The translations under genes and the position numbers were made by a program. A DNA stretch of 64,000 nt, taken from the NCBI GenBank assembly GCA_009777735.1, contig WRLF01000011.1:1-64000 (forward strand), read 5' to 3'. Origin of the DNA: Treponema sp. (GTDB lineage Bacteria; Spirochaetota; Spirochaetia; Treponematales; Breznakiellaceae). This document shows, one piece after another, positions 572-63,636 of the stretch. The first letter of the stretch is position 1; every line of letters starts with the position of its first letter. Under the pieces are notes generated by a model, which saw nothing but the letters and a program-made list of their open reading frames with translations, was not told where the DNA came from and did no database searches.

Positions 572-2257
572 ATGGAAGCCCTGAAAAAAAATCCCGCATG
601 GAAAAGCCGGCGCGGACCGGTGGTGTTGGTTATCATGGACGGTGTTGGCTATGGCAAATACCGGGAAGGCGATGCCGTTGCCGATTCGAAAATGGATCAT
701 TTAACGGCAATAAAGGCAAAAAGCCCCAATACCAGGCTTAAAGCCCACGGAACGGCGGTTGGACTGCCATCTGACGAAGATATGGGGAACAGCGAGGTGG
801 GTCATAATGCTATGGGCTGCGGCAGGGTGTTCAATCAGGGGGCGGCGCTGGTGTCAAAGTCCATTGCAGCCGGGGCGATGTTTGAAGGTACTGCCTGGAA
901 AGAAATTGTTGCCAATGTGAAAAACTCCCAGATTGACGGTCAAAGGCCGTCAACAATACATTTTATCGGGCTGTTTTCTGACGGAAATGTGCATAGCCAT
1001 CTTGATCACCTTAAAGCAATGATAATCCAGGCAAAAAAAGATGGGGCTAAACGAGTGGTCGTTCATGTCCTGTTTGATGGCAGGGATGTGGGGGAAACGA
1101 GCGCGCTGGAATATGTTGATCCTTTTGAGGATTTTTTGAAAGAACTGAGCGACAGCAGCTTTGACGCAAAGATCGGATCGGGCGGCGGGCGTATGTGGAT
1201 CACCATGGATCGATATGGTGCGGACTGGTCAATGGTAGACCGGGGCTGGCAGTGCCATGTACTGGGAACGGCACGGCAGTTCGCTTCAACACGGGAGGCG
1301 GTGGAGACCTACCGCAAGGAAATTCCCGGCATTATCGACCAGGACTTAAAAGAATTTGTAATTGCCAGGGATGGGAAACCAATCGGTACTATCGAAGACG
1401 GCGATTCGGTCGTGTACTTTAATTTCCGGGGAGATCGTGCGCTGGAAATGACTGCCGCATTTGAAGAAAACAATTTTGATAAATTTGACCGCAAGCGGCG
1501 CCCAAAAGTATGTTATGCAGGAATGATGGAATATGATGGCGACCTCCATGTCCCCAGCCGTTACCTTGTCAGCCCTCCGGCAATCGACCGAACGCTGGGC
1601 GAATACCTGGCGGCAACCGGCGTGCGGACTTTGGCGATTTCTGAAACCCAAAAATTCGGCCATGTTACCTATTTCTTTAACGGCAACCGCACCGGCAAGT
1701 TTGACGACAAGCTGGAAACATATATCGAGATAAAAAGTGATATCGTTCCTTTTGAACAGCGCCCCTGGATGAAATGCGCCGACATCGCCGATCAGGTTAT
1801 TGAAGCAATCCATTCGGGCAAGTACGATTTTATCCGGCTCAACTTTCCCAACGGCGATATGGTAGGTCATACCGGCATTTATCAGGCAGTGGTCTGTTCC
1901 ATGGAAGCCATGGACCTGCAGCTTGGCAGGATCGCCAAAGCGGTTGATGAATCAGGGGCTGTGATGCTCATTACCGCAGACCACGGCAACAGCGACGACA
2001 TGTATGAGCATGACAAGAAAACAGGCGCAGTTTCATTGAAGAGCGACGGAACACCCAGGGCAAAAACTGCCCACAGCCTCAATCCCGTGCCGTGCATCAT
2101 CTACGATCCCGAATATCAGGGCGAATACTCCAACGATCCAAAAGAAAACTGCCTGAATGAAGGTTTGGGAATTAGCTCCGTTGCCGCTACGTGCATACAG
2201 CTTTTGGGGTATGTACCGCCGGTAGATTACGATAAATCGGCTCTGATTGGCAAATAA
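572..2257 (+). CDS. gpmI: 2,3-bisphosphoglycerate-independent phosphoglycerate mutase
   Basis: Interconverts 3- and 2-phosphoglycerate in cytoplasmic glycolysis and gluconeogenesis. At 561 residues it has the usual length of the iPGM branch of the alkaline-phosphatase superfamily. Visible metal and catalytic motifs are MDGVG (Asp23), GNSEVGH with the phospho-acceptor Ser74, HSHLDHL, DGRDV, HTGIYQAV, TADHGNSDDM and the C-terminal AKTAHSLNPVP segment. The ATG is preceded by AAGGAG at 560-565. It stands alone behind its own promoter and a long inverted repeat. A 7-base-period array begins in its stop codon. The assignment is firm; the cofactor-independent type follows from the fold motifs. Confidence 0.96.
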   Translation: MEALKKNPAWKSRRGPVVLVIMDGVGYGKYREGDAVADSKMDHLTAIKAKSPNTRLKAHGTAVGLPSDEDMGNSEVGHNAMGCGRVFNQGAALVSKSIAAGAMFEGTAWKEIVANVKNSQIDGQRPSTIHFIGLFSDGNVHSHLDHLKAMIIQAKKDGAKRVVVHVLFDGRDVGETSALEYVDPFEDFLKELSDSSFDAKIGSGGGRMWITMDRYGADWSMVDRGWQCHVLGTARQFASTREAVETYRKEIPGIIDQDLKEFVIARDGKPIGTIEDGDSVVYFNFRGDRALEMTAAFEENNFDKFDRKRRPKVCYAGMMEYDGDLHVPSRYLVSPPAIDRTLGEYLAATGVRTLAISETQKFGHVTYFFNGNRTGKFDDKLETYIEIKSDIVPFEQRPWMKCADIADQVIEAIHSGKYDFIRLNFPNGDMVGHTGIYQAVVCSMEAMDLQLGRIAKAVDESGAVMLITADHGNSDDMYEHDKKTGAVSLKSDGTPRAKTAHSLNPVPCIIYDPEYQGEYSNDPKENCLNEGLGISSVAATCIQLLGYVPPVDYDKSALIGK

Positions 2258-2297
2258 CAATTAACAGAGAACAAAGAGTAAAAAACTGAGAACGGAG
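2256..2297 (+). repeat. Degenerate 7-base-period array (six units)
   Basis: Six consecutive heptamers that mostly begin with AAC, for example AACAGAG and AACGGAG. The array starts within the gpmI stop codon, and its last unit supplies the GGAG of the ribosome-binding site for the next gene. It belongs to the dispersed period-7 class seen at about ten other places in the window. Confidence 0.7.
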
Positions 2298-2309
2298 AGG
2301 ATTATTGAG

Positions 2310-3527
2310 GTGAAAACTGCAAAAACAGGAAAAGACAGCGGGCTTTCTCCGAAACGCCTGAAAAATATTGATGACTATTTACAGCGTATTGTGGATCAAG
2401 GCAAAACGGCAGGCGCTGCGGGAATGATTATCCGCCGTGATGTGCAAGCGTACTGTGCAAGTTTTGGCATGAAAGATTTGAAGAAAAAGACACCTCTGAA
2501 AAATGACGCTATTTATCAAATATGGTCAATGACAAAAACATTTACCGTTACCGCAGCAATGACCCTGTATGAAAAAGGGCTTTTCAGGCTGCATCAACCG
2601 ATAGCAGATTTCCTCCCGGCATATAAAAATATGCAGGTTGCTGAAACGGATGAACGCGGTTTCACCCGGCTTGTTCCTGCCAAACGCCCGGTCACTTTTG
2701 AGCATCTGTTTACCATGACATCAGGCATCCCATATCCGGGCGGCGACAGTTTTTCAGGGCGGAAAATGGATGAAATCCATAAAAAATCAATGCGGGCTGC
2801 AGCAAAAGGAAAACCCTGGAATACCGCTAAAATGATTGACGAAGCTGCCAAAACGCCTCTGTGTTTTCATCCCGGGGATCAATGGCTGTATGGTTTTTCT
2901 CACGATATCCTGGGTAGACTCATTGAGGTGCTGTCCGGCAAAACACTCGGACAGTACTTTGCAGAAACGATATTCAAACCCCTTGGCATGAAGGATACCG
3001 CTTTTTATGTTCCCAGGGAAAAACAGATCCGCCTCGTTACACCGTACCGCCTTGGCTCCAAAGGACTCGTGGATCAAAAAGAACTGCACCGTGATTTTTC
3101 ATCAACAAAACCCCCGGTTTTTGAATCGGGCGGCGGCGGCCTGTGTTCCACCATGGCTGACTGTGCCCGTTTTGCTCAGATGCTGCTTAACAACGGTAAG
3201 TTGGGAAATGAGCGGATCCTCTCCCGCAAGACCATAGAACTTATCCGGACGAATCATTGTGACCCTGGCATTTTGGCGCCTTCGTTTTTTTCCCACATGA
3301 GCGGTTACGGGTATGGTCTGGGAGTTCGTACCATGATGGATACTGCCAAAGCCGGGCTTAACGGTTCTGCTGGAGAATGGGCATGGGACGGCTATCTGGG
3401 TACATATTACCTTGTCGATCCTGCCGAGGAAATGACAGCGTTGTTTTTTATCCAGCTTGTTTCGGACATAAACAGTGATCTGCAGCGCGGATTTGTTCAA
3501 ACCGTTTACGGGGCCATAGACGACTAA
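2310..3527 (+). CDS. Serine hydrolase, class C beta-lactamase / EstB-type esterase family
   Basis: A 405-residue protein of the beta-lactamase/DD-peptidase fold. The SxxK nucleophile motif is S73-M-T-K76, followed by GLFRLHQPIADFLP and by a YGFS segment at the position of the YxN motif. The C-terminal motif is WDGYLGTYY, a W-x-G form typical of EstB-like esterases rather than the KTG of true beta-lactamases. No signal peptide is visible, so it is probably cytoplasmic. The GTG start has GGAGAGG 11-16 bases upstream, contributed by the period-7 array. It converges with the GH29 gene, overlapping by 4 bases. The substrate cannot be told; esterase or peptidase is likelier than antibiotic resistance. 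Confidence 0.85.
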   Translation: MKTAKTGKDSGLSPKRLKNIDDYLQRIVDQGKTAGAAGMIIRRDVQAYCASFGMKDLKKKTPLKNDAIYQIWSMTKTFTVTAAMTLYEKGLFRLHQPIADFLPAYKNMQVAETDERGFTRLVPAKRPVTFEHLFTMTSGIPYPGGDSFSGRKMDEIHKKSMRAAAKGKPWNTAKMIDEAAKTPLCFHPGDQWLYGFSHDILGRLIEVLSGKTLGQYFAETIFKPLGMKDTAFYVPREKQIRLVTPYRLGSKGLVDQKELHRDFSSTKPPVFESGGGGLCSTMADCARFAQMLLNNGKLGNERILSRKTIELIRTNHCDPGILAPSFFSHMSGYGYGLGVRTMMDTAKAGLNGSAGEWAWDGYLGTYYLVDPAEEMTALFFIQLVSDINSDLQRGFVQTVYGAIDD

Positions 3528-4960
3528 TGGGGATTTGCGGCAGGCAGAATCCTTTCCGCGGGATCTGAGTATGCTCCGGCAAAACGCAGGGTAGGGTAAA
3601 TACGGCTCCTCTCAATCGTTATGCGCAATTCTTCTGTTTTCACAGGAGCAAAACGACAAATTTTCCTGAAACCTACGGTTGTGCCCGAGTAAATTTTTTC
3701 CCAGTTATTTTCTGACGTTTTTGCATGGACAGAAAAAGCTTCAATGCGCTGGCTTTCCCGAACCTGCTCCCGTATATCAAGGTGTGTCAGTTTTTTCCTG
3801 TGTGACAGGGTAAAAGTAATTTCGGCCTGTTCGGATTCTTCGGCAGGCCGCCAATAGCTGTCATCATCACACAGTATATTTGCCGCAGGGAATGAGGGAT
3901 TTTCCGTACCGGTACACACTGACGCTCCCTCCAGCAGGTTGTCATCAAAAATGTTTTTGATGGCCGCTCCCAGTTCTGCAAGCCGCATACAGTCCGCTTC
4001 ATGAATGCGCCCTTCGCGGTTGGGAGGTATATTAAGCAGCAGCACGGCATTCCCTCCCGCTGCCGTTTCGTAAAAACGCAGCAGGGTTTCCAAAGGTTTC
4101 ACCTGGTCATCTTCTTCGGGGTGGTAAAACCAGCCCGGGCGGATTGAGACATCCACTTCGGCCGGATACCAGATCAGATCTGTCTCACCCGCCAATTTTT
4201 CCCGGCTGCCCAAATCCTCTTCACGGACAGGCCGCTCCCGGAAGGCAGGGTCGTCTATATGCTGGGAATCGGCGGCGATTTTATGGACGCTGCTCATCCG
4301 GCGCGGAAGTACGCTCCATTCGGACGAACGGGTTTTCCCCGCTTCATTGCCGACCCAGCGCACATCCGGCCCCACAATGGAAATAACCGCATCCGGCTGA
4401 TGGCGGCGGATTAGGGCATAGTAGCGATCCCAGTCGTAGAACTGTTTTTTCCCGTTTGACCCTTCACCGCAGGCCCCGTCAAACCAGAGAGAATAGAGTT
4501 TGCCGTAGCGTGTTAGAATTTCTTCAAGCTGCCCGCAGAAAAAATCATCGTATTGCCTGCCTGTACCATAACAGGGCTCATGTCGGTCCCATGGCGAAAG
4601 GTACATGCCCAGTTTCAGGCCGTATTTTTCACAAGAAGCGGCAAGCATAGCTGCTACATCTCTTGGAAAGGGGGAGGACATAACACTGTGCCTTGTAAAG
4701 GCTGTATCAAAAAGACAAAAACCGTCATGATGCTTTGCTGTGAGAATGCAGGCGCGGATGCCGGCGGACTTGAGTGCTGCGCACCATTGATCCGTATCAA
4801 GCCGTGATGGGTTGAACAGGGAAGGACTTTCCTGCCCTGTACCCCATTCGCGGTTGGTAAACGTATTGATTCCAAAGTGGAAGAAGGCCGTAAAGCCCAA
4901 TTCCTGCCAGGCAATCTGCCGTTCATGCGGGCGTACCTGCACCAATGATGTACAATTCAT
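3524..4960 (-). CDS. GH29 alpha-L-fucosidase
   Basis: A 478-residue glycoside hydrolase family 29 protein that would release alpha-L-fucose from glycans. Family motifs are FFHFGINTFTNREWG near the N terminus, AKHHDGFCLF (His77-His78), YLSPWDRH, and LWFDGACG with the predicted nucleophile Asp161. A C-terminal beta-rich domain of about 130 residues resembles the usual discoidin-like extension. No signal peptide is present, so it likely acts on imported oligosaccharides. A GTG start at 4984 is possible, but ATG at 4960 lies 7 bases after a TATAGT box, matching the leaderless pattern of this genome. It is divergent from nagA-nagB, which suggests shared use in glycan or amino-sugar catabolism. Confidence 0.9.
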   Translation of the reverse strand: MNCTSLVQVRPHERQIAWQELGFTAFFHFGINTFTNREWGTGQESPSLFNPSRLDTDQWCAALKSAGIRACILTAKHHDGFCLFDTAFTRHSVMSSPFPRDVAAMLAASCEKYGLKLGMYLSPWDRHEPCYGTGRQYDDFFCGQLEEILTRYGKLYSLWFDGACGEGSNGKKQFYDWDRYYALIRRHQPDAVISIVGPDVRWVGNEAGKTRSSEWSVLPRRMSSVHKIAADSQHIDDPAFRERPVREEDLGSREKLAGETDLIWYPAEVDVSIRPGWFYHPEEDDQVKPLETLLRFYETAAGGNAVLLLNIPPNREGRIHEADCMRLAELGAAIKNIFDDNLLEGASVCTGTENPSFPAANILCDDDSYWRPAEESEQAEITFTLSHRKKLTHLDIREQVRESQRIEAFSVHAKTSENNWEKIYSGTTVGFRKICRFAPVKTEELRITIERSRIYPTLRFAGAYSDPAERILPAANPH

Positions 4961-4967
4961 ATATTTC

Positions 4968-4996
4968 ACTATAGAAAAAAGCACCTTGACTTGTAA
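4968..4996 (-). promoter_or_regulatory. Candidate leaderless promoter of the GH29 gene
   Basis: On the minus strand TATAGT occupies 4973-4968, and a weak -35 TTACAA lies 17 bases upstream at 4996-4991. The -10 ends 7 bases before the ATG at 4960, and no Shine-Dalgarno is seen. The poor -35 keeps confidence modest. Confidence 0.35.
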
Positions 4997-9771: not shown

Positions 9772-12615
9772 ATGAATTCAAAATTTAGATTCGGAAAAAA
9801 ATTACAGCGGTTTTTTGTTGATTTTTTCACTTCGGGAAAGTATTCAAAACAAAAGGAATTCGGGATGTCCGACTACCTTATCCGTTATGTACTGCTCAAT
9901 TTTATCAGTGTGGCGGGAGGAGCCATTCTTGTCGGGTTTATCGCGGTGCGATTCAGCGAAGGAAAATACAGCACTGTAGCCGCATGTTCGGTCATGCTCC
10001 TTATTGCCATATTAACAATTATTTTTTCCCGCATGAAAAAAATGCCGCAGATTGTTCCGGCCCTGATGCTCATGGGTTTTTACGGTATGTTGTGCATCAT
10101 GGTTACCTGGCTGGGAGAAGCTCTGGGCATGAACTTCCTGTTTATATATATGTACCCCCTGACTACCATCATGCTACTGGGAATGCGCCTTGGCATTATC
10201 TTTTCGTCTGTTCTTCTTGGGATAATTTCTCTGCAAATGGGAATACCCGGCATGTCCCGCTACTCCTACGCTTTTACCATTCCCATCCACATGATTGTCA
10301 CATACTTTCTCGTTTTCTCCGTAATGATTGTAGTCGAAATCACCCGTAAAACAAAGGATAGGCTGATAGATAACCAAAATTTACGGTTGCAGGAACTCAG
10401 GAAAGAAGCTGATGCGGCAAACCGAACAAAAAGCAACTTCCTTGCCAGTATGAGCCATGAAATTCGTACTCCCATGAATGCCATTTCCGGAATGTCAGAG
10501 TTGCTGTTACGAAGGGATCTGCCGGACGATGCCCGCACCGATGTGCAGGATATCAAACAGGCAGCTTCAAACCTTCTTTCAATCATCAACGATATTCTTG
10601 ATATTTCGAAAATCGAGGCAGGTAAACTGGAAATAATGCCCCTAAACTACATGCTTTCATCTCTGATTAATGACGCAATCAACATTATCCGTTTGAAACT
10701 TGTGGAAAGACCAATCCGGTTTTATACCAATATCGACGGAAACATCCCTAATAATCTCATTGGCGATGAGGTACGGGTACGGCAGATATTTCTTAATCTC
10801 CTTTCCAATGCGGCAAAGTATACCCAAAAAGGGCAAATCAGCATGTCAATTGCCATAGACAAACAGGATCAGGAAACGGTATGGCTGCGGATTGTGATAA
10901 CCGATACCGGACAGGGGATTAGACCGGAAGACCAGGAAAAACTATTCGGGGATTTTGTCCAGGTAGATACAAAAAAAAACCGGGCTGTTGAGGGTACGGG
11001 CCTGGGTCTTGCCATCACGAGAAAGCTTTGCCATGCCATGGGCGGAGATATTTTCGTACAAAGCGAACACGGCAAAGGCAGCGTATTTACCGTAACCATT
11101 CCTCAGGGATATTTACAGGGAGATTCCTTTGCTGGAGTACATGAGCCGGAACAAAAAAATGTACTGGTTTACGAAGGCAGGAAGATTTACGCCGATTCGG
11201 TATGCTGGGCGCTGCAAAATATGCATGTCCCCCACACCCTGGTATCAGCACAGGATGATTTTGCCGAAGCCCTGCAGCGTGAAGACTGGTTTTTTGTATT
11301 TTCCGGCTATGGCCTTTATAATAAAATCAAACCGGTAATGGAAAGCCTTCCTGTTGAAAAGAGACCGCCCCTTGCCCTCATGGTGGAGTGGGGGATTGAA
11401 GCGTATATTCCCAATGTCCGTTTTATTTCTTTGCCGGTACAGTCACTTTCCATTGCCAATACACTGAATGGTAAAGCAGACAGGCAGGACTTTTTTGAAG
11501 CCTCTGCATCGGGCGATGCATTGAGGTTCACTATTCCCTGTGCGCGGATTTTGGTTGTGGATGATATTGCCACTAACCTTAAGGTGGCTGAAGGCCTCCT
11601 TATGCCCTATAAAGCGGTGGTTGATACGAGCCTAAGCGGCATGGAAGCCCTGGAAAAGATTATACGCCGTGATTATGACATTGTATTCATGGATCACATG
11701 ATGCCGGAAATGGATGGAATCGAAACAACTGAAAAAATCAGAGCCTGGGAACAGTCCGATCACTCACGAGCTGTCGGACCAATCCCCATAATCGCCCTTA
11801 CAGCTAATGCCGTTTCGGGAATGCGGGAAATGTTTATCAGCAAAGGTTTCAGCGATTTCCTTGCTAAACCCATAGATGTTTCCAAACTTGACGAAATACT
11901 TGACAAGTGGATACCTAAAGAGAAGGTAAAAGGTAATGATCGGGGCTCGGGGCTCGGGGATCAGGGATCAGAGGAAAAAAGGGGGAAGTCTCCCGCCCCC
12001 GCTTCAGCGGGGGACATCCCCACAACGCTCCCGACTTTAACACCCCGGTCCCTGTCTATTCCCGGTATTGACACGAAAAAAGGCATTACCTTGGTCGGTG
12101 GAAAAGAAACAGTTTATTTACAGGTTCTGGCATTATTCTGCAATGACGCTGAACAACGGCTGCCGCTCTTGCAAACAGTGCCGGCAGCAGATGCCTTGAC
12201 ATTATTCGTTACCCAGATTCATGCATTGAAAAGCGCATCTGCCTCCATTGGCGCCGATGGAGTGTCGGTGCAGGCAGCAGAACTTGAAACTGCAGGAAAA
12301 GCCGGAGACTTGACGTTTATCGGAAAATCTTTACCTGCTTTTGCTAAAAATCTTGCAGAGTTGATAATAAATATTAAAAATTCACTGGAAAATGATCGAA
12401 ATCCGCACATTTTTCACGAACTTGCTGCAGCGCTGCATTCCGAAAATTCCCTGGAAATTGACCGTATCCTTGACGAACTAAGTAATAAATCATTAGACTC
12501 AAAATTACGGGAACTTTTGGAAGAAATATCCGACTATGTATTAATGGCAGAATACCAGAAAGCAGGAGAAATTCTTGATAGTATAGAGTCAATGATTGCA
12601 GGAGTACAACCATGA
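9772..12615 (+). CDS. Hybrid sensor histidine kinase (7TM-like, HisKA-HATPase-REC-HPt)
   Basis: A 947-residue inner-membrane sensor. About six hydrophobic segments (residues 30-190) form the input domain. HisKA carries SHEIRTPMNA. The ATPase has NLLSNAAKY, DTGQGI and EGTGLGLAI. A receiver-like stretch (about 460-570) lacks the acidic pocket and looks degenerate. A true receiver follows with VVDDIATN, FMDHMMPEMDG and a KPID lysine. A C-terminal HPt domain has QIHALKSASASIGA. The full relay His-Asp-His is therefore in one chain; the final regulator is not in the window. The REC-HPt linker (about residues 718-765) is encoded partly by a period-7 array and is likely an insertion. Its stop overlaps the next kinase by 4 bases. 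Confidence 0.9.
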   Translation: MNSKFRFGKKLQRFFVDFFTSGKYSKQKEFGMSDYLIRYVLLNFISVAGGAILVGFIAVRFSEGKYSTVAACSVMLLIAILTIIFSRMKKMPQIVPALMLMGFYGMLCIMVTWLGEALGMNFLFIYMYPLTTIMLLGMRLGIIFSSVLLGIISLQMGIPGMSRYSYAFTIPIHMIVTYFLVFSVMIVVEITRKTKDRLIDNQNLRLQELRKEADAANRTKSNFLASMSHEIRTPMNAISGMSELLLRRDLPDDARTDVQDIKQAASNLLSIINDILDISKIEAGKLEIMPLNYMLSSLINDAINIIRLKLVERPIRFYTNIDGNIPNNLIGDEVRVRQIFLNLLSNAAKYTQKGQISMSIAIDKQDQETVWLRIVITDTGQGIRPEDQEKLFGDFVQVDTKKNRAVEGTGLGLAITRKLCHAMGGDIFVQSEHGKGSVFTVTIPQGYLQGDSFAGVHEPEQKNVLVYEGRKIYADSVCWALQNMHVPHTLVSAQDDFAEALQREDWFFVFSGYGLYNKIKPVMESLPVEKRPPLALMVEWGIEAYIPNVRFISLPVQSLSIANTLNGKADRQDFFEASASGDALRFTIPCARILVVDDIATNLKVAEGLLMPYKAVVDTSLSGMEALEKIIRRDYDIVFMDHMMPEMDGIETTEKIRAWEQSDHSRAVGPIPIIALTANAVSGMREMFISKGFSDFLAKPIDVSKLDEILDKWIPKEKVKGNDRGSGLGDQGSEEKRGKSPAPASAGDIPTTLPTLTPRSLSIPGIDTKKGITLVGGKETVYLQVLALFCNDAEQRLPLLQTVPAADALTLFVTQIHALKSASASIGADGVSVQAAELETAGKAGDLTFIGKSLPAFAKNLAELIINIKNSLENDRNPHIFHELAAALHSENSLEIDRILDELSNKSLDSKLRELLEEISDYVLMAEYQKAGEILDSIESMIAGVQP
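11923..11978 (+). repeat. Degenerate 7-base-period array (eight units) inside the kinase gene
   Basis: Eight heptamers in register, beginning with two AAGGTAA units, then GGCTCGG twice and GGATCAG twice. Neighbouring units are identical or differ by one or two bases. The array is read in frame as a Gly/Ser-rich linker between the receiver and HPt domains. It is followed by a perfect 7-bp hairpin at 11996-12013. Confidence 0.85.
11996..12013 (+). repeat. Short GC hairpin within the kinase linker
   Basis: CCCCCGC (11996-12002), loop TTCA and GCGGGGG (12007-12013) form a perfect 7-bp stem inside the coding sequence, just after the period-7 array. There is no T-tract, so it is not a classical terminator. 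Confidence 0.6.
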
Positions 12616-15284
12616 AGCTAATACAAAAGAAAAATTCCGGTAAATTACATTTAGTTTCATTACTGTTTTTCATGTCAACTGCTCTCATGGTGGGATTGGC
12701 GGTAGTTGTATCTTTCTCAATAAATTTAATGGAAAATACAATGGTAGATGCCATCCAGGATCATCTGGTTTCGGCGGCACAGGCAGCTTCAGTTCTTCTT
12801 ACCGTTGAAGATCTGGACTTGTTTCATACAGCAGAAGATATGGAAAGACCCGAATGGAATGAAATCAGAGCCATATTACAGAAATTTGCCGTAGACCACA
12901 GTGTACTGTACGTATACTATTGGCGGCTCTACGGAGAAGAGCAAATTCAATATATTATCGATAATGATGAAGACGAAGAGTACATGGTCACCCCGGAAAT
13001 GTTCTTTGATATTGATGAAGATCCCGCAACTGCCGAAGCGGTTCCTTTTATCACAGCCGGAAATGTGTGGGCTACCGATCTGGGAGTCTATACATCATCA
13101 TGGGACGGACTCATATCCGGTTTAGCCCCGGTTTTTAACAATGACGGTTCGATATACTGCGTCGCCGGTGTTGATTTAAGTGATGAAAAAATAATAGCCC
13201 AGCAAAACCTTATCAGGTTCATGCAGATATTCCTGATTTCCTCCCTGTTTTTATCGGTTCTTTCGGGAATTCTGGCCCTTCTGTCTTACCGTAAAAAAGC
13301 TCTGCAAAGCGAATTCGCAAATAAAACAAAAAGCCATTTCCTTGCAACCATGAGCCACGAAATCCGCACTCCTCTCAATGCGGTAATTGGTCTGTCGGAG
13401 ATAGAACTCCAGGGTGATTTATCCGATAAAAGCAGGAATAACATCCAGCAGATATACATGTCAGGCACTTCCCTGCTTGGTATCATTAACGATGTTCTGG
13501 ATATTTCAAAAATTGAATCCGGAGGTTTTGAACTTGTTCCGGTTGAGTATGATACCGTTTCGCTAATCGGGGGGACAATTAACCTTAACAAGGTCAGGAT
13601 AGGATCCAAACCGATAACATTTCACCTGGAGATAGATGATAATTTTCCACGGATGCTTTATGGCGACGAAATTCGGATCAAGCAGATTTTAAACAATATC
13701 CTTTCAAACGCGATTAAATATACCGCTGAAGGAAGTGTTACACTAGAGGTAAAAAGTAAAATTGAAAATGTAAAAGAAAACAACCATGATGCTTCTAACC
13801 TCTTGCCTTTTAGCTCTTGCCTTATAACTTTTATTGTTACAGACACCGGTATGGGTATCCGCAAGGAGAATATTCCGAAACTCTTCACCGGCTACACCCA
13901 GTTTGATATTACAGCCAACAGAAAAATCGAAGGTACAGGTCTTGGTCTTGAGATAAGTAAAAAACTCGTTGAGATGATGAGAGGCTCGATAACCGTCGAT
14001 AGCGAATACGGTAAAGGATCTGTTTTTACGGTTACCATTGTACAGAATCTTCCTGCAGGCAGTCTGTCGGGTATAGGGACCGAAACGGCTGTAAAACTGC
14101 GGCAATTGCAATATGTGGAGGAAGAAGAAAAGAAGCAAATCGATCGTACATGGATGCCCTACGGCAAGGTGCTGGTAGTTGACGATATGCCGGTAAACCT
14201 TCTGGTCGCGCAGGGGCTGCTTGAACCCTACGGTCTCCAGGTGGATGTCGCCGCTTCGGGACAGGAATCAATTAATAAAATAAAAGCAGGAAGATATGAC
14301 CTGGTGTTCATGGATCATTTAATGCCCGAAATGGACGGCATTGAAGCAGTCCGTATTATCCGTGCATGGGAAAAAGAATTGGGGATAGACGACTCCGACA
14401 CCCAAAATACAAACTCCCGGTCTCCGGTCCCCATAATAGCTCTCACGGCCAATGCCATGGCAGGAAACGTAGAGATGTTCCATTCCAAAGGTTTTGACGG
14501 ATTTGTCTCAAAACCCATTAACGGTATTGAACTCGACAAGGTTTTAAACCAGTGGATATATGACAGGAAGGATCAAATTACAATGGAGAAAAAGCAAGAA
14601 ACAATGCCGGAAGACACCATCTCTCCGATACCTAAAATCCCAGCATCCCACAATTTAGGTGATGGGCAAGCTCCCGATCCTCATTCCCTTACCATCCCCG
14701 GCGTTGATATGGCAAAAGGTATTGCGATGACCGGTGGTAAAAAAGAGTTTTACCATAAAATTCTGGCTATGTATAAAAAAGACGCAATAAAACGGCTGAC
14801 TTTTCTGCAAACCATTCCCAACGGGGAATCAATGACCGATTTCGTTACACAGGTTCATGCCTTAAAAAGCGCATCTGCTTCCATTGGGGCGGGGCAGGTA
14901 TCCAAGCAGGCAGCGGAATTGGAAGCGGCAGGCAAGGCAAGGGATTTGGCGCTTATTGAGGAAAAACTGCCTGTTTTTACCGGAAGCTTATCAGCATTAA
15001 CCGAAGGAATTCAGGCATGGGAAGACTCCGCTCAAGAACAGCAAAAAACCGGGTTTTCCGAAAAAACCCTGACTCTCTTTACCGGACTTGCCAAAGCTTT
15101 GGAATCTCAAAAGTTAGAAACAATCAACAACATTTTGGATGAATTAAACGGGACATCCATCCGTCAGCAGATGAATCCTAAAACCATTGATATTTTAGAG
15201 AAAATTGCAGACGATGTATTATTAACCGAATTCGAAAGAGCCCTGGCAGATGTCCGTCTATTGCTTGATGGGGGAGTCTTTTAA
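12612..15284 (+). CDS. Hybrid sensor histidine kinase, paralogue of the upstream kinase
   Basis: An 890-residue membrane sensor. Two transmembrane segments (about 12-38 and 198-222) bracket a 160-residue periplasmic sensor of Cache-like composition. HisKA has SHEIRTPLNA, the ATPase NILSNAIKY, DTGMGI and EGTGLGLEI, the receiver VVDDMPVN with FMDHLMPEMDG, and the HPt domain QVHALKSASASIGA. It lacks the degenerate second receiver of its neighbour. The catalytic parts are clearly duplicated while the sensors differ. The start ATG overlaps the previous stop (ATGA), giving translational coupling. Two period-7 arrays are inserted, one in the ATPase fold (13800-13827) and one in the receiver (14413-14433). 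Confidence 0.9.
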   Translation: MKLIQKKNSGKLHLVSLLFFMSTALMVGLAVVVSFSINLMENTMVDAIQDHLVSAAQAASVLLTVEDLDLFHTAEDMERPEWNEIRAILQKFAVDHSVLYVYYWRLYGEEQIQYIIDNDEDEEYMVTPEMFFDIDEDPATAEAVPFITAGNVWATDLGVYTSSWDGLISGLAPVFNNDGSIYCVAGVDLSDEKIIAQQNLIRFMQIFLISSLFLSVLSGILALLSYRKKALQSEFANKTKSHFLATMSHEIRTPLNAVIGLSEIELQGDLSDKSRNNIQQIYMSGTSLLGIINDVLDISKIESGGFELVPVEYDTVSLIGGTINLNKVRIGSKPITFHLEIDDNFPRMLYGDEIRIKQILNNILSNAIKYTAEGSVTLEVKSKIENVKENNHDASNLLPFSSCLITFIVTDTGMGIRKENIPKLFTGYTQFDITANRKIEGTGLGLEISKKLVEMMRGSITVDSEYGKGSVFTVTIVQNLPAGSLSGIGTETAVKLRQLQYVEEEEKKQIDRTWMPYGKVLVVDDMPVNLLVAQGLLEPYGLQVDVAASGQESINKIKAGRYDLVFMDHLMPEMDGIEAVRIIRAWEKELGIDDSDTQNTNSRSPVPIIALTANAMAGNVEMFHSKGFDGFVSKPINGIELDKVLNQWIYDRKDQITMEKKQETMPEDTISPIPKIPASHNLGDGQAPDPHSLTIPGVDMAKGIAMTGGKKEFYHKILAMYKKDAIKRLTFLQTIPNGESMTDFVTQVHALKSASASIGAGQVSKQAAELEAAGKARDLALIEEKLPVFTGSLSALTEGIQAWEDSAQEQQKTGFSEKTLTLFTGLAKALESQKLETINNILDELNGTSIRQQMNPKTIDILEKIADDVLLTEFERALADVRLLLDGGVF
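13800..13827 (+). repeat. Period-7 array (four units) in the ATPase domain
   Basis: CTCTTGC, CTTTTAG, CTCTTGC and CTTATAA follow one another in exact register. They encode part of a segment of about 16 residues that the paralogous kinase lacks, placed just before the strand leading into DTGMGI. Confidence 0.75.
14413..14433 (+). repeat. Period-7 array (three units) in the receiver domain
   Basis: ACTCCCG, GTCTCCG and GTCCCCA in register. They lie in a loop before PIIALTANAM where this kinase is about 8 residues longer than its paralogue. Confidence 0.5.
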
Positions 15285-17804: not shown

Positions 17805-17806
17805 GG

Positions 17807-24310: not shown

Positions 24311-24360
24311 AGGTTTGCGGCAAAAGAATCTTCCTGAACGGTGAGAAATACTGGAGTTCC

Positions 24361-24416
24361 CCCAGTCCCTACCCCCTAACTCCTACTTGCCTTTTACCTT
24401 GTACCTTGTATACTAA
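24361..24416 (+). repeat. Period-7 array (eight units) before sua5
   Basis: Eight heptamers in exact register from 24361, drifting from C-rich units such as CCTACCC to CCTAACT and then ACCTTGT repeated twice. The array ends 5 bases before the preferred sua5 start and would be translated only if an upstream start were used. Confidence 0.8.
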
Positions 24417-29620: not shown

Positions 29621-31060
29621 CTACTCTATTATCGGCACTCTGAGGACTCTTCCAATGGATAGAATTTGATTTAATGTCATGCCATTTTCTGTGGCAAGAA
29701 TCTGGGGATCAACGCCATAACGCCTTGCAAGCGACCATAAAGTATCGCCTTGTTCAACAATATGGGTTCCGCCAAAATTCACGCGTACTGATGGCACAGA
29801 CTGCGGTACTGGGGAAGAGGCTGAGGACGGTGCAGATGCTGCCGAAGATCCGCCGGTATAGGGGCTTACTTCCCGTAAGGCAGGAATAACGATGGTTTCG
29901 CCTATTCGCAGAAAACGGGATGTTATACCGGGATTGTGCTGTTCAATGAGATTAATGGAAATACCGTAATGACGGGACAATGCGGACAGGGTATCGCCGT
30001 ATTTGATTTGATAACGGTAGTACAGGAGCAGCCTTGTATCACTTCTTTCCAAAACATCGGTAATCGCCTGGGCTTTGGAAAGGGGAACAACAAGCTCGTA
30101 ATCCCTGTCCGGAGGAGTTATTCCATAAAGCAGTTCCCGGTTCAAACGATGAAGTATTTCCCTGTCTGTCCCTGTTTCCGCAGCGAGCAGAGTCAGCGAC
30201 ACCTGTCTTTCCGGTTTTATTACCGTCCATTCAAATGTATCCGGCCACCAGTCAATACCGTATTTCCGGGGATTTGAAAGGATGTAAGATACTGCAAGAA
30301 ATTTCGGTACATATTGTATTGTTTCGTTTGGCAGTTCTCTCATTTCAACCAGTGTCCAGTAGTCATCGGTTTCCGTACGTTCCAGGGCTCGGCGTACCCT
30401 GCCAACTCCGCAATTGTAAGCAGCCAGTGTCAGGTGCCAGTCTCCAAAAATGCGGTATTCACCGGCCAGTTTTCTGAGCGCGGCAACCGTTGATTTACGA
30501 AAATCCTGCCGCTCATCAATCATTTCGTTAACCTGCATGTCATGCGGAATACTGTTCAGCATAAACTGCCATATTCCAACCGCGCCTACCCTGCTGCGTG
30601 CTGTACTCATAAAGCTGGATTCAATAAAGGGCAGGTAAATTAACTCCGGCGGTAAGCCATGCCTTGCAATCTCATCTCTTATGAACGGAATATAGACACT
30701 CCCTGTTCTGATAACTGTATTGAGCCATCTGATGTTACCAGGCCTTGTATAATCCTCGATATATCTTTGTGTTAGGGGATGCTCAAGGGCTTCCGGGGTG
30801 AGCAATGAGTAATGAGTAGCAGCCAGTGAACTGTGAGTTGTAAGTGCAGGTACAGAACCCGCACTCTGACCCCGCAACGGACGTTCATCTCCCTGTGTGG
30901 CAGTCAGTAATATCACTGCATCTCCCGGATTTTGCGCTGTTTGGGCTCCCAGCCTGCCTGCCATTCCGGAATACAATAAAATACACAGAAGCACAACCAG
31001 TGCTGTGCTGTTATTTTTTATCCCCAATCCCCTATCTCCGGTCCCCATTTTTTTTCTCAT
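29621..31060 (-). CDS. mltD: Membrane-bound lytic murein transglycosylase D-like, two LysM domains
   Basis: Cleaves peptidoglycan glycan strands with 1,6-anhydro product. A signal/anchor (LVVLLCILLYSG, about 20-32) is followed by a linker, the SLT domain (LPFIESSFMSTARSRVGAVG with catalytic Glu147, GIWQFM, LAAYNCGVGRVRRAL), and two LysM motifs (IKYGDTLSALSRHYG and VEQGDTLWSLARRYG). The ATG has GGAG upstream. Two period-7 arrays are translated: one gives MGTGDRGLG at the N terminus (31022-31049), the other THSSLAATHYSLL in the linker (30800-30848). It is divergent from a membrane protein and leads a two-gene unit. Confidence 0.9.
   Translation of the reverse strand: MRKKMGTGDRGLGIKNNSTALVVLLCILLYSGMAGRLGAQTAQNPGDAVILLTATQGDERPLRGQSAGSVPALTTHSSLAATHYSLLTPEALEHPLTQRYIEDYTRPGNIRWLNTVIRTGSVYIPFIRDEIARHGLPPELIYLPFIESSFMSTARSRVGAVGIWQFMLNSIPHDMQVNEMIDERQDFRKSTVAALRKLAGEYRIFGDWHLTLAAYNCGVGRVRRALERTETDDYWTLVEMRELPNETIQYVPKFLAVSYILSNPRKYGIDWWPDTFEWTVIKPERQVSLTLLAAETGTDREILHRLNRELLYGITPPDRDYELVVPLSKAQAITDVLERSDTRLLLYYRYQIKYGDTLSALSRHYGISINLIEQHNPGITSRFLRIGETIVIPALREVSPYTGGSSAASAPSSASSPVPQSVPSVRVNFGGTHIVEQGDTLWSLARRYGVDPQILATENGMTLNQILSIGRVLRVPIIE
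30800..30848 (-). repeat. Period-7 array (seven units) in the mltD linker
   Basis: Seven heptamers in register on the plus strand, starting GAGCAAT then GAGTAAT, later GAACTGT and GAGTTGT. Each differs from its neighbour by one to three bases. Read on the minus strand they give the Thr/Ser/His/Leu-rich linker before the catalytic domain. Confidence 0.85.
31022..31049 (-). repeat. Period-7 array (four units) at the mltD N terminus
   Basis: CCCCAAT, CCCCTAT, CTCCGGT and CCCCATT on the plus strand, in register. Read as mltD they encode the Gly/Asp-rich residues just before the signal sequence. Confidence 0.8.
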
Positions 31061-48145: not shown

Positions 48146-48868
48146 ATGAAACGGTTTATTTTAAGTTTGTTGGTTTTTGTAATTGCCGTCGGTATGGTCA
48201 GCGCTCAAGCTGAGGTTGGTGCAGATGATCCTTTCATGATCGGAGTAGATTCCGCACAGCAAATGCTTAAGGAAGTATCAGTTGATAAATTTGAGCATGA
48301 TGGTTTCTGGTATGCTACCATGTCAAGTGATGAAGGGTATGTAACATCAAGGTTGTTTTTTGGCGGCCCTGACGGAAAAGAGCCTGTTCCCGAAGAAGCG
48401 GATATGGATATTTCCGATGATTATGTTTTTGGCATTAGGGCGGATTTCCTCCGCCGCGGATATAACAGCTTTTTTGTCCGGCCCCTTCGCCCAATCCCCA
48501 TTGAAGGTATTACCAAGACTGTATCCGTATGGGCAGTTGGACGGAATTTCAACCATACCATAACGCTCCTTATACAGGATTATTTTGGCAGGGATTATGA
48601 AATTTTCATGGGAAGATTGAACTTCCAGGGCTGGAAGAGGTTAACTGTAGCCATTCCCCCGCAGACTCCCAGTGGAGCAACCGGTGTTACCCAGCGAAGC
48701 TATCATTACCCTAACCAGATGGGCGTAAGGATCATGGGTTTCCGTATTGATTGTGACCCGTTGGAAGCTTATGGCAGCTATTATATCTACTTTGACGATC
48801 TGAGGGCGATTACAGACCTCTTTGCTGAACATGACCGCGATCCGGACGATATGCAGGACGGCTGGTAG
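48146..48868 (+). CDS. FlaA-family flagellar sheath protein, second copy
   Basis: A 240-residue FlaA paralogue. Signal peptide LSLLVFVIAVGMVSAQA, then the shared core: KTVSVWAVGRNFNHTITLLI, QDYFGRDYEIFMG, GWKRLTVAIP, MGVRIMGFRIDCDP and YIYFDDLRAITDLF. The C-terminal end is acidic (EHDRDPDDMQDGW). The two proteins are clearly diverged and may form a mixed sheath. ATG 48146 has GGAGAGG upstream; an in-frame ATG at 48119 inside the previous gene is rejected. Transcription probably ends at the hairpin at 48907-48972. Confidence 0.92.
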   Translation: MKRFILSLLVFVIAVGMVSAQAEVGADDPFMIGVDSAQQMLKEVSVDKFEHDGFWYATMSSDEGYVTSRLFFGGPDGKEPVPEEADMDISDDYVFGIRADFLRRGYNSFFVRPLRPIPIEGITKTVSVWAVGRNFNHTITLLIQDYFGRDYEIFMGRLNFQGWKRLTVAIPPQTPSGATGVTQRSYHYPNQMGVRIMGFRIDCDPLEAYGSYYIYFDDLRAITDLFAEHDRDPDDMQDGW

Positions 48869-48878
48869 AATTACTGGT

Positions 48879-48927
48879 TGACAGACAGTTATCAGTTAAT
48901 AGAGAGAACAGTTAGTAATGAGAACAG
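48879..48927 (+). repeat. Period-7 array (seven units) after the flaA genes
   Basis: Seven heptamers in register, for example CAGTTAT, CAGTTAA and AACAGTT. The 3' part pairs with a later sequence to form the terminator at 48907-48972. Confidence 0.75.
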
Positions 48928-48972
48928 AGCGTGATATTTCACTGCCTGATGCTCATTGCTGACTGTTTTTTT
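48907..48972 (+). terminator. Terminator of the flaA operon built from a period-7 array
   Basis: The arm at 48907-48922 (AACAGTTAGTAATGAG) pairs with 48952-48967 over 16 positions, two of them G-U, with a 29-base loop. Seven T follow (48966-48972) and the next gene's ATG begins immediately after. This is a credible intrinsic terminator. Confidence 0.65.
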
Positions 48973-59696: not shown

Positions 59697-59698
59697 CC

Positions 59699-60451: not shown

Positions 60452-60462
60452 GTAAACAATCT

Positions 60463-61425
60463 ATGGCAGATCGCGGAATATTGGATTTTATTATTGCCCG
60501 TCTCCCCGGCCTTTCTTATGCCGAGAAAATACAACTCTGCGAGCTATGTAATACAGAAGACGATATTGTAAAAAAGTCAAAATCCGACATAGAAATAATT
60601 ATCAAACGCATTATCACCGGTGAAAAAGCAGCTTCCTGGAATATTGACAAAATTCGAAAAGAGGCGGAAAATGACTCAAAAGCTGCCCATATTCGGGGTA
60701 TTCATTGGGTCTCATGGCTCAGTCCTTTGTATCCGCCGCTTTTAAGGGAAATCTACGACCCGCCGGTACTTTTATTTTACAGGGGAAAACTCCCAAATCC
60801 GAATGTCCCCCTTGTGGCAATAGTGGGGACCCGTAAACCAAGCCCTCAGGCGGCTGCACAGGCGTTTGATATTGCCAGGGGCCTGGCTCGTTCAGGTATT
60901 TCGGTTGTTTCAGGTCTTGCCGTAGGCATTGACTCAATGGCGCATCGCGGTAATATTGAAGGCTTAACGGCAGTTTCTGCCGCACGGGCTGACGGAGCAG
61001 CAGCTTCTGCTGAAATGGCAGCGTCTGCCGTCGCGGTTTTGGGATCGGGTGTTGATGAGGTGTATCCATCAACGAACAGGATGCTGGCAAGACGTATACT
61101 GGAAACCGGCGGAGTTCTGGTTTCTGAGTATGCACCTGGTACAGGTCCCCGTAAATGGACTTTCCCTGCGAGGAACAGAATCATTTCCGGTCTTTCACGC
61201 GGAGTGTTGATTGTTGAAGCGCCTCAGAGATCAGGCGCTCTTATCACTGCGCGGTTTGCTCTTGAGCAAAACAGGGAGTTATGGGTTGCTTCCTCAGGGA
61301 TAGCAGTCGGCGGAGGAATCAGGTTTGATCGACGTGGTACAAAAAAACTGGCGGAAGACGGAGCGCCAATGATACATTCGGCAGCAGACATCCTGAAGGC
61401 GTGGAACATGAGAGTTGCATCATGA
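60463..61425 (+). CDS. dprA: DNA processing protein DprA
   Basis: Binds single-stranded DNA and loads RecA in transformation. The 320 residues have an N-terminal SAM-like region and a Rossmann core with VAIVGTRKPS, SVVSGLAVGIDSMAHRG, AVLGSGVDEVYP, ARNRIISGLSRGVLIVEA and SGALITARFALE. An Ala-rich stretch at about residues 168-188 (IEGLTAV to MAAS) is longer than in typical DprA and is encoded by three small palindromes (60969-61029). Its presence hints at uptake of DNA, though no com genes are in the window. Confidence 0.92.
   Translation: MADRGILDFIIARLPGLSYAEKIQLCELCNTEDDIVKKSKSDIEIIIKRIITGEKAASWNIDKIRKEAENDSKAAHIRGIHWVSWLSPLYPPLLREIYDPPVLLFYRGKLPNPNVPLVAIVGTRKPSPQAAAQAFDIARGLARSGISVVSGLAVGIDSMAHRGNIEGLTAVSAARADGAAASAEMAASAVAVLGSGVDEVYPSTNRMLARRILETGGVLVSEYAPGTGPRKWTFPARNRIISGLSRGVLIVEAPQRSGALITARFALEQNRELWVASSGIAVGGGIRFDRRGTKKLAEDGAPMIHSAADILKAWNMRVAS
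60969..61029 (+). repeat. Three tandem mini-palindromes in dprA
   Basis: GGCAG-TTT-CTGCC at 60969-60981, CAGCAG-CTT-CTGCTG at 60998-61012 and GGCAG-CGT-CTGCC at 61017-61029. All have a 5- or 6-bp stem with a 3-base loop, and together they encode the Ala-rich insert of DprA. Confidence 0.65.
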
Positions 61426-61455
61426 ATTATTTTTATCATATAAAAAGGGTTTTCA

Positions 61456-63633
61456 ATGGCAATTAAAACAGTATCAGAAAAAGCACGCCATCCAAAGACG
61501 GCGAAAACTTCAATAAAGAAAAAAAAATCCGGAGATAAACAAATCCTCGTTATTGTAGAATCTCCGACCAAGGCAGCATCATTCGAAAAATATCTTGGAT
61601 CCGAATATTCGGTACGCGCATCCATGGGCCATCTAATCGATCTCCCCAAATCGCGGACGGGCGTAGATACGGAAAATAATTTTGAGCCTGAGTATATAAC
61701 CGTCCGCGGCAGGGCAAAGATCCTTAAAGAACTGGTTGGCGCTGCAAAAAAATCGCAAAAAGTACTGCTTGCAAGTGACCCGGATCGTGAAGGTGAAGCA
61801 ATTGCCTGGCACCTGAAAAATGCCATTTTATCAAAAGCCGGTACAATGCCCGTTCAGCGTGTCAGTTTTAACGAAGTAACCCCGGCGGCAATAAAAGAAG
61901 CAGTTGATAAGCCGCGTCCCATTGACGAAGCTCTCGTAGAATCGCAAAAGGCCCGCAGGGTGTTGGATCGTCTTGTAGGGTACAGCCTGTCACCGCTTTT
62001 GTGGAAAAAAGTAAAAAACGGTTTATCCGCAGGACGTGTTCAGTCCGTTGCGCTCCGCCTCATCTGTGAACGTGAAAAAGAAGTTGAAAATTTTATTCCT
62101 GTGGAGTACTGGACCCTGGAGGCGGATTTTAAGGTTGGAAAATCAATTTTTACCGCGCAACTGGTAAAATGGAACGGCAATAAACCGGATCTCCCGAACG
62201 AAACTGCGGCTCGTGCCATTATCTCTGTCCTGTCCGGTTCTGAATGCGAAGTAACGGATATCAAGGAAATTGAAAAATCAATAAAGCCCAAAGCGCCCTT
62301 TATCACATCGGAACTGCAAAAGACTGCCGCAAACCGGCTGGGATTTACCGCACGTAAAACCATGCAGGTTGCCCAGCAGCTGTATGAAGGGGTGAATTTC
62401 GGTGACACCCGCATTGGTTTAATTACTTATATGCGTACCGATTCGGTGCGTGTATCGCCTTCGGCTCTTGCCGAATTGCTTGAATGGCTTGGTAAGCATT
62501 ACCCAAAGGATATTCCCGAAAAAGTACATGAATACAGTTCAGGTAAAAAAACGCAGGATGCCCACGAAGCAATACGGCCAACGTATGTCAGCTATACTCC
62601 CGAATCAATGACAGAACATCTAAATCGCGAGCAGCTTAAACTGTACACCATTATCTGGGAGCGTTATGTTTCCAGTCAGATGAAAAACGCAAAAACCCGC
62701 ACTGTCAGTGCGGAAATACAGGCAGTTTCCGGATCAGACAAAGGAATTTTCCGTATTTCCGGAACAAAGATTATCGAAAAAGGTTTTTACAAGGTAATCA
62801 GGATGCTGGTTACGAAAGATGAGAAAGGAAGCCCCTATCCATCGCTTAAAGCCGGGGATAAAGTTATTGTTGATAAATTCCACCCTGAGCAGCATTTTAC
62901 TCAGGGGCCAGCCCGTTATACCGAGGCTTCCATAATCGACATTTTACGGGAAAAAGATATCGGCAGACCTTCTACGTATGCGCCGATCATTTCAGTACTG
63001 CTGGATCGCTATTATATAACCCGATCAAACAAACAACTTGTTCCAACCCTGCTGGGAAAAAAAATATACGAAGTATTGGTGGAACACTTCCCCGATTATG
63101 TTGACGTGGCCTTTACCGCCTCAATGGAAACAAAACTGGACGAAGTTGAAGAAAGCAATCTGAAATGGCCGGACATGATCCGTGACTTCTGGGGGCCGTT
63201 TAAAGCGCAGGTTGACGAGGTTGGCAAGTCACTTGAGTCTTTCAAGGGATCGCTGGATGAACCTACCGACTATTCATGTGAAAAATGCGGCAGGCAGATG
63301 ATGAAAAAATTGGGCCGCTTTGGATTTTTCCTTGCCTGTTCCGGATTCCCCGAATGCCGGAACACAAAATCGGTTCCCCTGGCAAAATGTCCCAAATGTG
63401 ACGGTGATGTGGTATCAAGAAAACAAAAGGGCCGAGGTAAGGAATTTTACGGCTGCACGAATTACCCCGACTGCGATTTTATCAGTCATTTTAAACCAAT
63501 AAACCAGGATTGCCCAAAATGCGGCCGGTTTATGGTAGAAAAACATGATAAAAAACACGGCAGCCACAAAGCGTGCATTAATCCCGATTGCGATCATTTG
63601 CATTCAACTGAAGAGGCAATGAGCAATGAGTAA
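61456..63633 (+). CDS. topA: DNA topoisomerase I
   Basis: Relaxes negative supercoils. In 725 residues: a Lys-rich start, a TOPRIM domain (ILVIVESPTKAASFEKYLG, LASDPDREGEAIAWHL), the active-site tyrosine in ITYMRTDSVR and GRPSTYAPIISVL, then three C-terminal zinc ribbons (CEKCGRQMMKKLG, CPKCDGDVV, CPKCGRFMV) whose third pair is CINPDCDH. The last residues EEAMSNE come from a period-7 array, and the stop overlaps xerD by 8 bases. Confidence 0.96.
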   Translation: MAIKTVSEKARHPKTAKTSIKKKKSGDKQILVIVESPTKAASFEKYLGSEYSVRASMGHLIDLPKSRTGVDTENNFEPEYITVRGRAKILKELVGAAKKSQKVLLASDPDREGEAIAWHLKNAILSKAGTMPVQRVSFNEVTPAAIKEAVDKPRPIDEALVESQKARRVLDRLVGYSLSPLLWKKVKNGLSAGRVQSVALRLICEREKEVENFIPVEYWTLEADFKVGKSIFTAQLVKWNGNKPDLPNETAARAIISVLSGSECEVTDIKEIEKSIKPKAPFITSELQKTAANRLGFTARKTMQVAQQLYEGVNFGDTRIGLITYMRTDSVRVSPSALAELLEWLGKHYPKDIPEKVHEYSSGKKTQDAHEAIRPTYVSYTPESMTEHLNREQLKLYTIIWERYVSSQMKNAKTRTVSAEIQAVSGSDKGIFRISGTKIIEKGFYKVIRMLVTKDEKGSPYPSLKAGDKVIVDKFHPEQHFTQGPARYTEASIIDILREKDIGRPSTYAPIISVLLDRYYITRSNKQLVPTLLGKKIYEVLVEHFPDYVDVAFTASMETKLDEVEESNLKWPDMIRDFWGPFKAQVDEVGKSLESFKGSLDEPTDYSCEKCGRQMMKKLGRFGFFLACSGFPECRNTKSVPLAKCPKCDGDVVSRKQKGRGKEFYGCTNYPDCDFISHFKPINQDCPKCGRFMVEKHDKKHGSHKACINPDCDHLHSTEEAMSNE

Positions 63634-63636
63634 TAT
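63616..63636 (+). repeat. Period-7 array (three units) at the topA/xerD junction
   Basis: GCAATGA, GCAATGA and GTAATAT in register. The array provides the last codons of topA and the start codon of the following recombinase. Confidence 0.65.

Follow-up and report, generated by a model that had tools for sequence, protein, structure and literature searches.

Degenerate tandem arrays with an exact 7-base period are scattered through a 64,000-nucleotide stretch of a Treponema genome (positions 1 to 64,000 of contig WRLF01000011.1, our G000:C11:1-64000; hereafter the window), and comparison across the genus links such arrays to a dispersed element. In its full form this element consists of a purine-rich heptamer array (R array), a quasi-palindromic core of 50–66 nt and an inverted, pyrimidine-rich heptamer array (Y array). 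It keeps the R-left/Y-right order, has copies that lie in frame within genes, bears arms built from a unit specific to the genome and recurs at sites that are shared between genomes with differing content. On balance, we favor the interpretation that the arrays are the arms, solitary remains or variants of a non-autonomous palindromic element dispersed in these genomes, with arms that are rewritten between copies. The home genome (G000) is an assembly of 2.69 Mb in 39 contigs and is 83% complete. The genome set as a whole consists of metagenome-assembled genomes (MAGs), 67–100% complete, represented by sampled stretches with simple calling of open reading frames; the 24 relatives retrieved through flaA are MAGs labeled Treponema sp., and their isolate names suggest a termite-gut origin.

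Heptamer arms and palindromic cores

Arrays were scored over segments of self-match at one fixed lag (match +1, mismatch -1), with a third-order Markov model as the null. In a 464 kb sample of G000, 20 segments reached a score of at least 15 at lag 7, compared to 1, 3, 2 and 3 at lags 5, 6, 8 and 9 and to 0.0 under the null, which bears out the exact 7-base period reported in a preliminary description of the window. The other lags from 2 to 40 gave 0–5 segments each, apart from 11 at the harmonic lag 14. A larger sample of 864 kb, amounting to 32% of the assembly, contained 58 strong arrays at lag 7 against a mean of 1.6 for nine other lags; lag 14 gave 31 segments and lag 12, the highest of the remaining lags from 4 to 21 (14 and 21 aside), gave 11. 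Coding periodicity is ruled out as the source of this signal, because a lag of 7 falls outside the multiples of 3 and yields more segments than lags 6, 9 and 12. The period is constant, as had been claimed, and the excess is specific to certain lineages: the 58 arrays in 864 kb of G000 compare with a single array in 19 other genomes of the genus, sampled at about 20 kb each for a total of 366 kb (0.27 per 100 kb). Per 100 kb sampled, we found 15.3 arrays in G041, 6.7 in G000, 6.3 in G005, 4.8 in G009, 1.9 in G040, 1.3 in G001 and 1.0 in G016, the single array of the last being a poly-G run. From the matching position of locus L045, G005 is probably Treponema sp. Cx337_bin14. Long poly-G/poly-C runs were observed at loci L142 (52-92), L119 (36-107) and L209 (6904-6985), two of them near contig starts; these are possibly assembly artefacts, and they also score at lag 7, which slightly inflates the counts.

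Among 95 arrays of at least 17 nt situated at least 250 bp from the end of their locus, 30 have an inverted partner within 220 bp, as opposed to 1 of 95 with random flanks, and the purine-rich array is the left member in all 30 pairs. Neighboring arrays within 150 bp of each other (those with a purine fraction of 0.4–0.6 being excluded) are likewise arranged as R..Y in 22 cases, with one Y..R, four RR and one YY. The paired arms enclose quasi-palindromic cores of about 50–66 nt. Two families of these, R1 and R2, were aligned, modeled as profiles and searched for in 39 genomes of the genus. R1 has at least 17 matches in G040, 13 in G000, 8 in G041, 3 in G047 and 1 each in G009 and G044 (6 of 39 genomes), and R2 at least 56 in G041, 18 in G009, 17 in G005, 8 in G049, 6 in G047 and 5 in G023, with at least 14 further matches over eight genomes (14 of 39 in total). 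These counts are rough lower bounds, and a number of sites enter them more than once, through both strands or both models; many sites match the R2 model on both strands, as a quasi-palindrome would. When the R2 model was searched with stricter filters in 194 genomes of the order, three had matches, all of them from this genus.

We read 60 of the 167 core matches, none of them from the training sets; in each genome we followed the approximate rank order of the matches, passing over sites already in the collection and a few others, for example near contig ends. Heptamer arrays with a score of at least 8 flank the core on both sides at 45 of these sites, on one side at 10 and on neither at 5, the armless cores being three from G023 and one each from G049 and G005. 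At random sites in four genomes, arrays on both sides occur in 0–0.3% and on any side in 2.3–3.2%. In the sampled stretches, 19 of 22 recognized cores are accompanied by an array (training sites included). Conversely, a recognized core adjoins 17 of 33 strong arrays in G041, 4 of 11 in G005, 2 of 3 in G040 and none of 10 in G009. R2 cores lacking heptamer arms were seen at L335 149-203 (G023) and L277 316-375 (G049); the former site is array-armed in relatives, indicating that cores can occur without arrays.

The positions that would form the R1 hairpin pair in 79.7% of cells, against 31–58% for slid partners, and it should be noted that the hairpin claim is based on R1 together with folds of single sequences. 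A search of seven element-bearing loci against Rfam returned five tRNAs and nothing else. The integron attC site was dropped as a candidate for the cores, whose ends read GTT..AAC rather than AAC..GTT. Separately, a near-perfect palindrome, AGTTGTTCGGAAAC..GTTTCCGAACAACT, was seen at L123 6247, L135 12182, L192 11034 and L206 8436, including genomes with no arrays in their sample. Its ends resemble those of the R1 core, of which it may be an ancestor or relative.

The elements are placed where insertions are tolerated, in the gaps between genes, at gene ends and in protein loops, and within genes they can lie in frame. Typing of arrays in four genomes (purine fractions of 0.45–0.55 being excluded) gave 134 arrays, half of them (67) no more than 70 bp from a gene edge and the other 67 inside genes or far from an edge. 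At 51 of the 67 edges the array is purine-rich if right of the gene and pyrimidine-rich if left of it (p 4.6e-5; 15/15 in G041), irrespective of the strand of the gene; array-less gene edges in G000 have the opposite lean. Furthermore, G rises inward along the purine strand in 41 versus 23 of 74 arrays (10 ties, p 0.03), and in 15 of the 17 arrays with a large difference. This inward rise suggests that the arms are layered, with A-rich units on the outside and G-rich units beside the core.

Three genes of G000 contain in-frame elements that encode a common peptide of the type DQGPGTRDxCS..N..xEI..GSPNxEPRSPIPDPRS: one for a class I tRNA synthetase (read as IleRS), one for Mfd (TRCF) and one for an ABC transporter. 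The PriA gene of G041 also harbors a copy, as do genes identified by eye as those of Lon, TrmD, threonine synthase and a kinase receiver domain; the copies in PriA, Lon and TrmD are likewise in frame. The frame is open across the element and 110 nt on each side at 22 of the 60 read sites. Sense frames of R1 use one phase in 10 of 11 cases, with three antisense R1 frames falling in three phases, and those of R2 use one phase in 5 of 5 sense and 5 of 6 antisense cases. At the site of the IleRS element, 17 of the 20 relatives fetched have a short loop, the 20 having been chosen among 38 for a break in the alignment at the site; six relatives that align straight through it were left unread, and the G009 and G041 stretches fall short of it. 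In the IleRS of G005 (L300), this loop has a proline-rich insert of a different kind. A loop of QueA that bears a solitary array spans 153 nt between identical anchors, compared to 126 nt in 22 of 28 relatives and 123 to 183 nt in the remaining six; one relative with another anchor was excluded.

Shared sites and the heptamer unit

The sites compared number 182, comprising 103 solitary arrays, 74 sites with a core and 5 cores without arms. Forty of them fall into 16 clusters in which both flanks are homologous between genomes, gene names at these sites being read from translations. The content of such sites differs between genomes. The gap between FlgE and FlbD is occupied by R1 in two genomes (G040, G041) and by R2 in two others (G009, G047); Lon has R1 in G000 and R2 in G041; and TruB has a core of either family, R2 in G041 and R1 in G040, but a solitary array in G000. 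PriA similarly has a solitary array in G000 and R2 in G041. In threonine synthase R2 is found in both G041 and G009, with different arm units, while the gap upstream of DnaJ has R2 with arms in G041 and G047 and an armless R2 in G023, a genome with no arrays in its 20 kb sample. Outside the kinases, clusters that set a solitary array against a full element are PriA, TruB, L144 12714/L195, L155/L273 and L159 8617/L197. Among 122 sites of the sampled loci there are 14 homologous pairs, as against 0, 0, 0, 0 and 1 among random sites. Hybrid histidine kinases, a family of paralogs, account for seven of the 14; among the remaining seven, the L159/L197 neighborhood contributes three and that of L144/L195 two.

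Each array-rich genome has its own favored heptamer words. In a set of 55 elements, many of them from G041, the similarity of arms within a genome is 0.93 for R2-R2, 0.90 for R1-R2 and 0.84 for R1-R1 pairs, whereas it is 0.77–0.78 between genomes and 0.68 for shuffled arms. When genome labels were permuted within core families, the observed difference was reached in 0 of 1000 permutations, also with cross-family pairs alone; with G041 left out, the similarity is 0.85 within and 0.75 between genomes. Thus, the heptamer unit follows the genome more than the lineage of the element. The corresponding core identities within and between genomes are 0.66 and 0.61 for R2, 0.75 and 0.67 for R1, and 0.47 and 0.38 for R1-R2 pairs. 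In G000 alone, arms of the same element are more alike than those of different elements (p 0.017). The preliminary description had given each array its own sequence; the units do differ, but unit families such as AAAAGGT, AAGAGGT, AACAGGG and ATCGGGG recur genome-wide. Nor is a reading of the arrays as independent, unrelated repeats supported, given their genome-specific units, mostly R-left/Y-right order, frequent pairing round conserved cores and recurrence at homologous sites in relatives.

Arrays of the 64-kb window

Heptamer-like sequence is present at all 11 places in the window that had been listed as arrays, and six of these score at least 10. The remaining five (at 13800, 14413, 22730, 32805 and 48879) score 6–8 and are individually indistinguishable from chance; the Markov null gives 5.5 matches in the window at a score of at least 8 and 40.9 at 6 or more. 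At a score of at least 10 there are seven lag-7 segments in the window against 0.55 expected, and at 13 or more there are three against 0.0.

A degenerate purine-rich array on the plus strand at 2251..2298 (score 13; null mean 0.0 at this score or above) lies between genes of the iPGM and beta-lactamase families, as assigned with Pfam, and overlaps the iPGM stop. The array at 11923..11978 (plus strand) is in a hybrid histidine kinase, in the linker between the receiver and Hpt domains, with AAGGTAA units followed by GATCGGG units; it scores 21 at 11940-11971 and 7 at 11923-11936. Homologous kinase linkers of G009, G001 and a second kinase of G000 also bear arrays. Because the cluster to which it belongs consists of kinase paralogs, the window array at 11940 is weaker evidence for one inherited site. 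Hybrid histidine kinases are numerous in G000, with 49 matches to one kinase (window 9772-15284). Another array within a hybrid histidine kinase, of GTAAAAT-like units at 13749..13775 (plus strand, score 10), is also reported by Tandem Repeats Finder and was not among the places listed earlier.

A pyrimidine-rich array at 24360..24410 (minus strand, score 18) occupies the 5' end of the gene for Sua5 and precedes the conserved Sua5 domain, which starts at residue 55; on its purine strand, TACAAGG units grade into GGGACTGG. The gene for a LysM/SLT protein contains a purine-rich array at 30799..30848 (plus strand), scoring 11 for 30799-30818, with the stretch beyond 30818 following the extent given in the preliminary description. 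About 170 bp to its right, a CCCCAAT-type array at 31020..31046 (minus strand, score 10) is found at the 5' end of the LysM/SLT gene. Directly 3' of flaA, at 48879..48972 (plus strand), we read by eye a weak R array (score 6), a short hairpin GTGATATTTCAC, a complementary arm and a run of seven T, a structure with no match to the core models. It is as if an element had turned flaA terminator in G000 (window 48866-48972). On the 3' side of flaA, an ordinary hairpin with a T-run was seen by eye, uncounted, in many of the relatives printed (L042-L093). Finally, a short GCAATGA array at 63616..63634 (plus strand, score 10) lies over the end of the topoisomerase I gene, assigned with Pfam.

Origin of the arms and related repeats

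The following course of events could be envisaged for such elements. A site, once occupied, would remain so, its arms would change length in 7-nt steps, and they would repeatedly be rewritten from other copies within the genome. The most likely route for this rewriting would be repair by recombination after breakage at the palindrome, because the two 3' ends so formed would carry the same purine heptamers, exposed and able to pair with, and copy from, any element of the genome. Repair of this kind would account for the single favored unit of each genome and for the exchange of cores at a fixed site, and solitary arrays would be its incomplete products. We hold more tentatively to the proposal that a process encoded by the genome writes the favored heptamer onto arms genome-wide, whatever the core family or site, which is possible, but for which the chances are clearly short of even.

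Several observations weigh against the interpretation of the arrays as parts of an element with rewritten arms. No target duplication, mobilizing enzyme or recombination event was observed, Y1 being the one transposase family searched; the two gene sites compared for target duplication are variable loops in which no duplication is legible. Only 6 of the 58 strong arrays in G000 touch a recognized core, both cores in the G009 sample are without an array, and the window has no significant core match (best E-value 0.089). Because 52 of the 58 are without a recognized core, it is the sharing of sites and of units, and not a core, from which we derive the solitary arrays of G000 from elements. The two core models each take in a few nt of arm at either end and are thereby slightly biased towards array-flanked sites. 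The R1 alignment has no covariation above shuffling (37/500), and alignments of 8 and 74 rows gave no consensus fold for R2. The frame constraint may be a mere effect of stops in the other frames of the core. Furthermore, core identity is also somewhat higher within than between genomes, cross-family pairs included (0.47 versus 0.38), and arms of the same element have no excess likeness in G041 (p 0.11), G009 (p 0.83) or G040 (p 0.34).

Ordinary transposition, with the arms as terminal inverted repeats for a transposase that varies between species and the shared sites as hot spots rather than inheritance, is somewhat unlikely in our estimation, yet comes next in standing. Conserved cores, in-frame copies and R-left/Y-right arms do resemble a miniature inverted-repeat transposable element (MITE), and the differing core families at Lon and in the FlgE/FlbD gap would fit reinsertion. 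However, R2 cores are nearly as diverged within a genome (0.66) as between genomes (0.61) while their arms are uniform (0.93), and because of this discrepancy a recent burst of arm-plus-core copies is unlikely. Y1 transposases, the one family searched for, do not follow the distribution of the arrays, as they occur in 17 of 39 genomes and are absent from G005 and G040, and no core was found beside Y1 genes at the six loci read; on these grounds an origin from Y1 transposases of repetitive extragenic palindromes (REP) was rejected. The Y1 genes at L189 12576-14111 (minus strand), L196 817-2355, L114 and L213 have a common upstream stretch near a TATATA motif, and upstream of the L189 gene there are several tandem GTGATTGACACC repeats; none of these genes adjoins a heptamer core.

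It is rather improbable that the arrays arose by replication slippage with an inherent 7-nt step plus mutational drift, the pairing and the cores being separate matters. Such slippage would suit the exact period with drifting units and the many solitary arrays, and two published accounts give heptamers as the most frequent of the long simple repeats in most of the genomes surveyed (PMC4692102, PMC4679880). It makes, however, no prediction of the R-left/Y-right rule (51/67), of inverted pairing, of cores or of a unit common to unlinked loci. Least probable of all is de novo synthesis at 3' ends, in which both 3' ends of a break would be extended with purine heptamers by an enzyme of the telomerase or terminal-transferase kind prior to joining: the 5'-to-3' course of the purine repeat away from the conserved edge on both strands, the inward rise of G and the setting of the unit by the genome agree with it, but RVT_1 is absent from array-rich G000 (83% complete) and G041, occurs once each in G005 and G009 and is present in several array-poor genomes, Ku is absent from all 39 genomes, and the conserved cores would need a separate source. 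By the same distributions, neither a DRT10-like reverse-transcriptase product nor Ku-dependent end joining is supported.

The preliminary description had drawn a loose parallel with the short tandemly repeated repetitive sequences (STRRs), which are short heptamer repeats of cyanobacteria. This parallel proved apt, in that the G041 unit GGGGACT is also arrayed in Nostoc plasmids. Stretches of the latter (150 kb) contain 10 strong lag-7 arrays, with one in 40 kb of Cupriavidus plasmid sequence; the neighboring arrays in Nostoc are one YY, one RR and one YR, with no R..Y, and close pairs are too few for a test of cores. The available portions of the literature describe heptamer arrays from cyanobacteria, Xanthomonas, Burkholderia and Beggiatoaceae (PMC4692102, PMC4679880). 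Those of Xanthomonas and Nostoc are GGGAATC and GGGGA(C/T)T, with the G-rich strand being the coding strand downstream of stops and the non-coding strand upstream of starts, and convergent inverted pairs number 70 in Xcc and 75 in Xac, for which no function is given there (Rehm et al. 2015, PMC4692102). The Treponema arrays resemble these in their period of 7, dispersal above chance, placement at edges and convergent inverted pairs, and G005 units of the TTAACTG type resemble the TAACTGA arrays of Beggiatoaceae (MacGregor, PMC4679880). Unlike the arrays of Xanthomonas, Nostoc and Beggiatoaceae, as described in those portions, the Treponema arrays often form arms around a conserved core that has in-frame copies, with units compared genus-wide, and unlike those of Xanthomonas and Nostoc many copies lie inside genes. 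A preference for four units and the formation of G-quadruplexes are further marks of the Xanthomonas/Nostoc type; in Treponema, units of the AAAAGGT or AACAGTT type have no runs of three G. As to why the unit is seven, a guess cited in both accounts is contact with the polymerase (PMC4692102, PMC4679880).

With regard to palindromic elements, the Rickettsia palindromic elements (RPEs) are described, in the part of the account available, as dispersed sequences of about 100–150 bp that lie in frame in unrelated housekeeping genes and encode a common peptide (PMC10969869). The Treponema element is likewise palindromic, dispersed and in frame in unrelated genes with a common peptide, but differs from RPEs so described in having arms of tandem heptamers with a genome-specific unit and in being frequent in gene gaps as well. 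It could hence be termed an RPE-like element with heptamer-array arms, a likeness drawn from description alone; descent from RPEs is not claimed. With MITEs it shares terminal inverted repeats, here the heptamer arms. In the BrickBuilt MITE of Porphyromonas gingivalis a tandem repeat is also built into a MITE-like element, but in the portion of that account consulted its unit is 23 nt, its array single and internal and its location always intergenic (PMC4596501), in contrast to the 7-nt unit, two arms and in-gene copies of Treponema. A union of heptamer arrays with in-frame palindromic elements was not found in the openly licensed literature.

Through these observations, heptamer arrays can be linked to an element that has its own core, site and orientation, in a genus with both positive and negative relatives. 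They also add, besides Rickettsia, another lineage in which palindromic elements lie in frame in housekeeping proteins, among them IleRS, Mfd, PriA and a presumed Lon. If the more tentative proposal of a genome-encoded writing process is true, the elements would be lasting docking sites at which the arms and even the cores are re-copied after breakage, and the arms, of 30 bp, would be undergoing concerted evolution at dozens of unlinked loci, the interiors of essential genes included.

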